From assembly GCF_013035425.1 (NCBI RefSeq), contig NZ_WQHX01000005.1:1-64000 (forward strand): a stretch of DNA of 64,000 bases, written 5' to 3'. Shown piece after piece: positions 14,083-49,259 of the stretch. The position numbers and the translations under genes were made by a program. This stretch comes from Ruegeria arenilitoris. GTDB taxonomy: Bacteria > Pseudomonadota > Alphaproteobacteria > Rhodobacterales > Rhodobacteraceae. Each line of letters starts with the position of its first letter. Positions within the stretch are counted from its first letter, which is position 1. A model generated the notes under the pieces. It did not search any database and was not told the origin of the DNA. It saw only the letters and a program-made list of their open reading frames with translations.

Positions 14083-14221
14083 GTCAGATGTCACCTTTCG
14101 ATGTTCTCAGCGGGCAAAGACACCGTCGGGCCCCGGCGCCTTGCACATTCGAGACGACACGTCCGGATCAATTCATGGCCACCGTCCCGAGTGGCGGCCT
14201 CCCGATCCGCGAACCGTATCT

Positions 14222-46487: not shown

Positions 46488-46586
46488 GGTGAGAGGTTGG
46501 CGCGGGCGAGCGCCTCGCCAACCTGGTCAGGTCCGGAAGGAAGCAGCCACAACGAGCCCCGCTTGGGTCGATGTCCAACCTCTCAC
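46488..46586 (+). ncRNA. ffs: Signal recognition particle RNA (4.5S type)
   Basis: The ends GGTGAGAGGTTGG and CCAACCTCTCAC pair to form the long SRP RNA helix. The conserved domain IV motif GGTCAGGTCCGGAAGG then AAGCAGCC is complete, including the tetraloop and the asymmetric loop that bind Ffh. The small bacterial form, about 99 nucleotides. It is preceded by a promoter and followed by a terminator-like hairpin at 46709. Confidence 0.97.
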
Positions 46587-46708
46587 TCTCGAACGTGTAT
46601 CGCGCGTAAATTCTTTCAGCGGCAGGAGGGCCTTTATGATTGTAGCAATGACCCTTCGGGCTGATGGTTTCTGAGAACACACAAACTGATCATTGCCTGA
46701 ACACACGA

Positions 46709-47820: not shown

Positions 47821-48050
47821 AATATTCATGCCGGTATCATCCGGGGACAAACAGCTGCATTTCCATATGCAACGACCACTAGGTGTTCGATCTATCGTAA
47901 TCCGAAGTCTAAAGGTTCCAACTGAGTGAACCGATAAAACCCTATGTTTGGATTTACCTTGCGTTTTTCTCCCTGAGTTTGAGCCTTAAGCTCACACTCG
48001 AGAATACAGCAAGCTTGACTTGGGTGTGGTTTGGCCATTAGCCGTTGGCT

Positions 48051-48241
48051 GATGGTTTCCCTGCCCTCGATTGAGGACGGGATTAAAAGGGAACACGGTG
48101 CGACCTTCCCGGGATACCGGAATGGTTCAAGTCCGAGACTGCCCCCGCAACTGTAAGCGGAAAGCGATGCCGAGATACCACTGGCCTACAGGCTGGGAAG
48201 GTCGGCAAAGCGACGACCCGCAAGTCAGGAGACCTGCCATC
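48051..48241 (+). promoter_or_regulatory. Cobalamin riboswitch
   Basis: The closing stem GATGG (48051-48055) / CCATC (48237-48241) encloses the standard elements AAGGGAACACGGTG, GACTGCCCCCGCAACTGTAA then GCGG, and GTCAGGAGACCTGCC. These are hallmarks of adenosyl-/methylcobalamin riboswitches. The next gene on the plus strand is the small Cys-rich protein 105 bases downstream. Its Shine-Dalgarno is itself in a hairpin loop (48328-48344), so control is probably translational; no U-tract terminator was found. Confidence 0.93.
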
Positions 48242-48327
48242 AAAAATTGAAACCGAAACTCGGGCGGGGCGTCCGGTTGGGGTCAGACCGTGATACGCGG
48301 GTCTTCCCGAACAAAGCCCATCGTCCA

Positions 48328-48344
48328 ATGTGCGGAGGGCACAT
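48328..48344 (+). promoter_or_regulatory. Hairpin presenting the Shine-Dalgarno in its loop
   Basis: ATGTGC (48328-48333) and GCACAT (48339-48344) form a perfect 6-bp stem whose five-base loop is GGAGG, the Shine-Dalgarno, with the start codon at 48346-48348 right after. It is a plausible expression platform for the cobalamin riboswitch upstream. Confidence 0.6.
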
Positions 48345-48345
48345 C

Positions 48346-48753
48346 ATGATCTGGAACACGAAAACACATCAATTTACGGCCACGATTTGCCATCGCACGG
48401 GCACCTCGTGCCCTGCGATGGCACGCACGGGCCGTGAGCTGGCTAAATCCATCTTAGCCTCGGGACGGAGTGCAACGCGCGATATCGAAATCGAAGGCAG
48501 CGTTGAACTGGCGTATTGCAAAAACGGATGCACCGCAAAGTTTCGAGCACGGGTGGACGAAGTGCGCCTTTATTGCGGAGTGGAAACTGACGCCCAAATG
48601 GATCTGTTAGATACCTTTGCCGAGCTAATGTTTGGGACAGATTTTGGTATCCTGCCATCTAGTGCGACATACAATCCCCCATGCGCCATGCTCCAGGCGC
48701 TAACGATATCTGAAATAGATGTGGCTGAACCAGATTTCTGTGCGATCCTTTAG
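48346..48753 (+). CDS. Cys-rich protein of unknown function under cobalamin riboswitch
   Basis: 135 residues from ATG 48346, chosen because GGAGG is seven bases upstream. Cysteines at 15, 22, 58, 62, 77, 113 and 132; the order C-x6-C ... C-x3-C (CHRTGTSC, CKNGC) is reminiscent of thioredoxin-like [2Fe-2S] proteins and of DUF1636, a family often seen beside cobalamin genes, but similarity was judged by eye only. There is no signal peptide or membrane helix. No known cobalamin enzyme or transporter gene is next to it; the following gene is on the opposite strand. A role in cobalamin or cobalt handling is inferred from the riboswitch. Confidence 0.72.
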   Translation: MIWNTKTHQFTATICHRTGTSCPAMARTGRELAKSILASGRSATRDIEIEGSVELAYCKNGCTAKFRARVDEVRLYCGVETDAQMDLLDTFAELMFGTDFGILPSSATYNPPCAMLQALTISEIDVAEPDFCAIL

Positions 48754-48755
48754 GG

Positions 48756-49259
48756 CTATTGCGCCGCGAAAACGACAGCCGGCGCTGTCGCCCAATGCAT
48801 TTGGTCATCGGTCTCGACAGCACCAGGACGAAGGGCCCGCAAGCGTGTCAGCGCCGTATCGGGGTTTTCGCCGCATTCGACCATTAATCGGAGTACGACC
48901 ATTCCCGAACGACCGCACCCGCCGCGGCAATGAACCAAGACGCGACCACCGCCTGAGAGCGCTTGCCGCGCTGATGCGCTGGTAACACCCCAGCGTTTGC
49001 GGATTTCCGCCGATGGTGCCCCAAAATCCTCGACAGGAAGGTGAACCCAACGGCTGGCGCGGCCTTGCACGTCACGTCCAAAGTCGCGGGCGCCGTCCAT
49101 GATCATCTCAACTTCGGTCGCCATCGAGATCACAAGACCCGGACGCCAGCCGGAAATCATCTCAAGATCACCGGAATAATCACCATTCCGCCCAGGCATT
49201 GAGGTTAGCGCAAGTGTGCCACCGCCCACTTGCAACGCATGAATCACCATTTGAGACAT
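48756..49259 (-). CDS. Protein-tyrosine/dual-specificity phosphatase family protein
   Basis: 167 residues. The signature HCRGGCGRSGM (C111 nucleophile, R117) is the HC-x5-R motif of cysteine phosphatases; the likely general acid is D78 in LPVEDFGAPS. It resembles the small Rhodobacterales protein-tyrosine phosphatases. Its stop is two bases past the stop of the convergent riboswitch-controlled gene. The start of dnaX is divergent. The target is unknown. Confidence 0.88.
   Translation of the reverse strand: MSQMVIHALQVGGGTLALTSMPGRNGDYSGDLEMISGWRPGLVISMATEVEMIMDGARDFGRDVQGRASRWVHLPVEDFGAPSAEIRKRWGVTSASARQALSGGGRVLVHCRGGCGRSGMVVLRLMVECGENPDTALTRLRALRPGAVETDDQMHWATAPAVVFAAQ

Follow-up and report, generated by a model that had tools for sequence, protein, structure and literature searches.

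Riboswitch, leader and gene organization

The window, by which we mean the whole 64,000-nucleotide stretch of Ruegeria arenilitoris DNA analysed here, contains a cobalamin riboswitch followed by one small gene, P0001, both on the forward strand. The aptamer (RF00174) was placed by cmscan at 48036-48255 (+); it scores 127.8 bits (gathering score 31.5, E 9e-32), and the match covers the model from end to end (1-189 of 189). The first-pass annotation was right in calling this riboswitch complete, but its start at 48051 falls 15 nt inside the aptamer, and the gap of 105 bases that it gave between aptamer and reading frame is 90 nt when measured from the aptamer end to the ATG at 48346. The reading frame itself has the size reported earlier, 135 residues encoded at 48346-48753 (+) including the stop codon, and a GGAGG lies 7 nt upstream of its ATG. 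The next gene, with a dual-specificity-phosphatase-type domain, is found at 48756-49259 (-). Because it lies on the opposite strand, the riboswitch precedes P0001 only, which bears out the earlier description of a single-gene unit. In place of genes of B12 synthesis or transport, this RF00174 riboswitch is followed by one small gene annotated without a function.

The R. arenilitoris genome (4.8 Mb) carries five cobalamin riboswitches. One of them, on contig C23 (L043:9822-10031, minus strand), lies upstream of genes for an ABC ATPase and for a periplasmic protein of ZnuA type, a metal-type importer that is probably under B12 control. A weak second match of 41.1 bits on contig C26 (L044:5577-5732, plus strand) is near cbtA, with no obvious gene 3' of it. 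Two other structured RNAs in the window scored above their own cut-offs, a Rhodo-rpoB RNA at 14115-14208 (-) and a small SRP RNA at 46490-46588 (+).

Several elements of the P0001 leader are shared with RF00174 riboswitches that have a translational expression platform, namely the whole aptamer, an adjoining G-rich hairpin and a ribosome-binding site placed in a conserved hairpin. The G-rich hairpin (48259-48276, +), presumably P13/L13-like, is nearly unchanged across an alignment of 39 leaders and may base-pair, through its loop, with the CCCCCG loop of the aptamer at 48142-48147 (+), which the RF00174 alignment locates and which we take to be L5. A C-rich stretch at 48316-48326 (+) is a putative switching element suggested by the fold of the window leader and by a consensus fold; in these models it would have two alternative pairing partners, the G-rich hairpin and the ribosome-binding site. 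The predicted fold of the window leader contains the stem between the G-rich and C-rich stretches together with the GGAGG hairpin. Its energy is not significant against shuffled leaders (z -1.3, with 19 of 200 shuffles equally stable).

The hairpin that presents GGAGG in its loop (48328-48344, +) was compared in 67 homologous leaders. At least four standard pairs surround GGAGG in 62 of them, with changes on both sides of the stem; three others have three pairs, one has none, and in the last GGAGG is absent from the stretch examined. Taken together, the 19 distinct hairpins have 78 paired positions out of 95 as against 69.4 in shuffles, a value reached by 8 of 5000 in a statistic that ignores kinship. 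In the R. arenilitoris hairpin a C-G pair is replaced by U-A, a double change. The segment GCGGAGGGC upstream of the ATG was considered as a coding upstream reading frame and rejected, since it is identical in 65 of the 67 leaders, a near-identity without the silent changes expected of coding DNA, and its frame relative to the gene varies between groups.

By analogy with the btuB riboswitch, as it is described in PMC7689651, we infer an off-switch that probably acts at translation. When cobalamin is scarce, the ribosome-binding site in the loop of the small hairpin would be open and P0001 would be made; when cobalamin is bound, the aptamer would shut the ribosome-binding site. Cobalamin riboswitch RNA has been reported in transcripts of R. 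pomeroyi, the gene being unspecified in the portion of the paper available (PMC4809877).

Conservation of the riboswitch and gene pair

The pairing of riboswitch and gene is real and goes beyond chance. The P0001 gene is present in 37 of 37 genomes searched in the genus, and the riboswitch is immediately upstream of it in every one (the window, L007-L026, L027-L035 and L105-L111); it is likewise carried by L037 and L038, two more records named as Ruegeria, the latter with the orthologue of R. pomeroyi. In the wider family the orthologue profile matched 46 of 394 genomes, that of R. arenilitoris included, with E-values computed per single genome. Loci were built for the best 30 of these 46, leaving the 16 weakest unscanned, and a riboswitch was found in all 29 other than that of the window (20/20 and 9/9). 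These 29 comprise 13 loci of P0001 type, one of which (L120) is from the same genus, 6 intermediate loci and 10 that we call bridge loci. The association that the first-pass annotation had singled out therefore holds for 37/37 genus genomes and 29/29 further family loci. Regulation of P0001 by the riboswitch is a well-supported prediction.

Outside these groups the gene is sparse. No P0001 homologue was found in 24 genomes from other families of the same class, and a class-wide draw gave matches to the P0001 profile in 4 of 385 genomes. Two of the four are from the same family (R. arenilitoris itself and G135), one is from another family and has the riboswitch (L150), and one is a weak match without it (L151). 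A tblastn search in plasmids returned two Tritonibacter mobilis records with more distant relatives (29-33% identity). With no match in 348 of the 394 family genomes, the function is dispensable for most of them.

Where the gene is present, it is under purifying selection. All 39 of 39 orthologues share M1, W3 and H8, and 59 pairs of orthologues whose dS lay from 0.1 to 1.2 gave a median dN/dS of 0.29. Scanning flanks of 1.5 kb (5 kb for L037 and L038), we found dnaX near 37 of the 39 orthologues and in 10 of the 13 family loci of P0001 type, and the phosphatase active-site motif of the opposite-strand neighbour in all 39 orthologue loci.

Descent from DUF1636 and the shift in cysteines

The sole Pfam match to P0001 is DUF1636 (PF07845), at 19.8 bits against a cut-off of 31.6 (E 0.0011), and an NCBIfam scan gave no match. 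PF07845 also matches 14 of the 39 orthologues at E <= 1, with a best E of 4e-5, and the profiles of P0001-type and of typical DUF1636 proteins, when compared directly, match weakly (probability 63%, E 7e-5). Intermediate sequences firm up this relationship. The bridge protein L138 is matched both by the P0001 profile (E 2.5e-12) and by PF07845 (108.7 bits), and L137 similarly by the P0001 profile at E 5.7e-13 and by DUF1636 at 43.5 bits; of seven more divergent P0001-type or intermediate proteins, four have sub-cut-off matches to DUF1636 and the other three have none. Using hhalign, the P0001-type and bridge profiles aligned over 115 columns with a probability of 99.2 and E 1.2e-19. A 63-row tree with typical DUF1636 proteins as its root places the P0001 branch (44 rows including four intermediates, branch support 100/99) within the bridge group, its exact position being less certain because the branch is long. 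These results show that P0001 is a derived branch of the DUF1636 family, linked to it through the bridge proteins, which have six cysteines and are its nearest relatives. P0001 shares with DUF1636 (a family that includes PDB 9jn8, 'ORF378') this ancestry and the link to cobalamin riboswitches. It differs in scoring under the Pfam cut-off and in having lost most of the conserved C-terminal motif DG..RP..L...RIP, of which little but P112 and A114 is left.

The suspicion of a DUF1636 relationship raised from the letters of the window was thus right in kind, and as had been said, no known B12 enzyme or transporter was among the matches in the Pfam and NCBIfam scans. The label 'unrecognised' was too strong, since P0001 branches from a known, if uncharacterised, B12-linked family. 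Our literature searches, in which subscription journals were mostly uncovered, returned no tested function for DUF1636 and no account of the P0001 branch.

The earlier count of seven cysteines, with C-x6-C and C-x3-C, was confirmed. For comparison across the family we numbered six slots as C1-x2-C2-x6-C3 and C4-x3-C5-x3-C6. C15, C22, C58 and C62 of P0001 are present in 52 of 52 P0001-type proteins and correspond to C2, C3, C5 and C6, spaced C-x6-C-x35-C-x3-C in all 52 rows, whereas C1 is found in 1 of 52 and C4 in none. Beyond the slots, C77 is nearly invariant (39/39 close orthologues, 37/40 in the wider set of alignment A5), C113 is kept in 38 of 39 and 38 of 40 respectively, and C132 in only 1 of 39 close orthologues. 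The bridge proteins have all six slots filled (10/10). The DUF1636 type linked to cobW has C1, C2, C4, C5 and C6 (4/4 rows of A5, with the motif in 30/30 loci), while the genus types linked to cbtA (2/2) and to ABC genes (3/3) have C1, C2, C4 and C5 in the A5 rows. C2 and C5 are invariant over all 63 rows of this alignment. The conserved set has therefore been shown, within these alignments, to have moved from C1-C2/C4-C5 to C2-C3/C5-C6 with the bridge proteins as six-cysteine links. L137 is missing C4 alone, and L135 and L132 retain C1; these states suggest a plausible order for the steps. The four invariant cysteines would fit a metal or iron-sulfur site.

DUF1636 proteins are predicted to be thioredoxin-like [2Fe-2S] ferredoxins (PMC4520260). 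Searching the PDB, typical-DUF1636 profiles found 9jn8 at E 4.5e-30 and 5.4e-27, followed by non-significant matches to complex I 24-kDa subunits and a 2Fe-2S ferredoxin, along with the unrelated chains of a collagen adhesin and an epoxyqueuosine reductase. The bridge profile alone and L138 alone also found 9jn8 (E 4e-10 and 7e-11) and no ferredoxin in the PDB. P0001 alone gave no PDB match, and the broad P0001-type profile A7 gave one unrelated chain only. Weak matches of the genus profile A1 to alphavirus E1 chains (best E 0.006, best over residues 24-92) were discarded as chance, because they disappeared with A7 and with P0001 alone. Among six relatives scanned against NCBIfam, two had a '2Fe-2S ferredoxin' model as a weak top match (E 0.03-0.05, far under the cut-off), one had an Rhs model and three had nothing.

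Two AlphaFold2 models of P0001, the second from an alignment that included bridge and DUF1636 rows, had pLDDT values of 81 and 87. Their predicted order of helices and strands is compatible with a thioredoxin-like fold, and the four invariant cysteines fall in two predicted loops. Structure searches with both models gave best Foldseek E-values of 0.05 and 0.09, and the best VIA-align score (Z 5.3, rmsd 3.2, 70 aligned) was to a pseudopilin. Neither a thioredoxin-like ferredoxin nor 9jn8, which may be outside the library, was among the 50 matches listed for both models. The likeness to thioredoxin-like [2Fe-2S] ferredoxins (NuoE and those of Aquifex and Clostridium) lies in the predicted fold of the parent family and in cysteine spacing, that of P0001 being close to the C-x4-C-x35-C-x3-C of NuoE. 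A difference is that the alignment places the cysteines of P0001 in a shifted register; the ones matching ligands one and three of the 24-kDa subunits of complex I have been lost.

B12 gene context and a proposed function

The relatives of P0001 are found in loci for importers, cobW and cbtA, and on this evidence what unites the family is a link to cobalt and corrinoids. In R. arenilitoris one DUF1636 paralogue lies 3' of a cobalamin riboswitch and 5' of cobW, with cobN downstream, and another adjoins cbtA. An ABC Walker-A motif is encoded in 10 of 10 bridge loci as against 0 of 19 other family loci, and in L138 the next genes encode an ABC ATPase and then a Peripla_BP_2 protein (26.5 bits, cut-off 27.5). 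The leaders of ABC-linked DUF1636 genes (L113-L116) show after the aptamer what seems to be a short reading frame that has a ribosome-binding site to itself; judged by eye, the frames of L114-L116 are alike and that of L113 is less so.

One genome of the same genus, G004, is informative. It is listed as 100% complete and, alone among the 37 genomes of the genus, gave no match to DUF1636 at E <= 1. It has no CobN, the only CobN-family gene being BchH in the photosynthesis cluster, and CobH and CobO were not found in it. A PduO-type adenosyltransferase is present, as are a TonB receptor and a periplasmic binding protein that are led by a riboswitch, and from this gene content G004 looks like a B12 auxotroph living by salvage. 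Its P0001 orthologue is intact, with cysteines and riboswitch kept. A second genome, G213, also lacks CobH and CobO, has an adenosyltransferase and carries a divergent P0001 copy 3' of a riboswitch; the other 18 of the 20 genomes in the same test have both CobH and CobO. Since G004 retains the gene without CobN, CobH and CobO, P0001 is unlikely to act solely in inserting cobalt or in the synthesis of the corrin. The earlier suggestion of a cobalamin- or cobalt-handling factor is therefore weakened in its cobalt part. Cobalamin riboswitches also precede, in G004, a ribonucleotide reductase with an RNR_N domain (L157), presumably class Ib, and a Rieske oxygenase with its reductase (L156).

From these observations we propose, tentatively and at somewhat less than an even chance, that P0001 is a cobalamin-repressed one-gene unit encoding a thiolate redox carrier, probably an iron-sulfur protein, for corrinoid salvage or activation. 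C15, C22, C58 and C62 would be the ligands of a [2Fe-2S] cluster or of some other metal held by thiolates. P0001 would donate electrons to Co(III)/Co(II) corrinoids and in this way allow cobalamin, whether imported or spent, to be adenosylated or reactivated. P0001 would then serve the salvage and use of cobalamin and not cobalt insertion. Of the roles considered, electron transfer to corrinoids is the most likely, with modest confidence. To our knowledge, no electron source has been established for reducing cobalamin in aerobic marine bacteria. Against the carrier stand the many family genomes that lack a match, the want of a ferredoxin among the PDB matches of the bridge profile and of L138, the loss of the cysteines matching two ligands of the complex I subunits, and the fact that no gene for a redox partner is adjacent to P0001. 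The split cobalamin methyltransferases of R. pomeroyi have to be recharged by reduction, and RamA and DUF1638 have already been put forward for this task (PMC12478193). P0001 would add to these proteins, which may be its partners or, equally, a reason against the need for another donor.

Other explanations have to be weighed against this carrier. That P0001 is a cobalt-handling factor, as the first-pass annotation had it, acting as a buffer or chaperone for B12 synthesis, draws on the two paralogues of its own genome, one between a cobalamin riboswitch and cobW-cobN and one beside cbtA; we consider it rather unlikely, given the intact gene in G004 and the position of 47 of 52 P0001-type loci near dnaX, away from genes of cobalt uptake or chelation. 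A factor for B12 shortage that does not act on corrinoids, for example an adaptor or regulator bearing zinc or a disulfide, is also improbable, but is a contender to be taken seriously: B12 riboswitches may precede other genes, as with the ribonucleotide reductase of G004, and both the fold and the iron-sulfur cluster of P0001 are predictions. It fits poorly with the occurrence of relatives in importer, cobW and cbtA loci.

These same importer loci suggest a protein of corrinoid import, either a regulator or a factor for reductive release, that has left the locus of its ABC transporter and acts in trans. The bridge proteins are encoded beside an ABC ATPase, in L138 with the near-cut-off periplasmic binding protein 3' of it, but the Walker-A motif was found in none of the 13 P0001-type family loci, and we hold this to be quite improbable. 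Finally, the riboswitch could belong to another transcript and the reading frame be fortuitous, since other reading frames overlap it mechanically. The chance of this is negligible and the idea is in practice refuted by the conservation of start, ribosome-binding site and cysteines, by purifying selection, and by the riboswitch upstream of the gene in every genus genome scanned.

Returning to the redox carrier, it is possible, if doubtful, that a natural shift in register of the entire ligand set within a ferredoxin-like fold, by way of six-cysteine ancestors, gave rise to a new, B12-repressed electron carrier that reduces corrinoids for their salvage or reactivation and has outlived the loss of B12 synthesis. 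Swaps of cysteine ligands have reportedly been engineered in the [2Fe-2S] ferredoxin of Clostridium pasteurianum, which has the thioredoxin-like fold. The stepwise shift of cysteines in this family would offer a natural series on the movement of a metal site within one fold. DUF1636 recurs in B12-linked loci, and the P0001 branch would part at least one member of the family from cobalt insertion.
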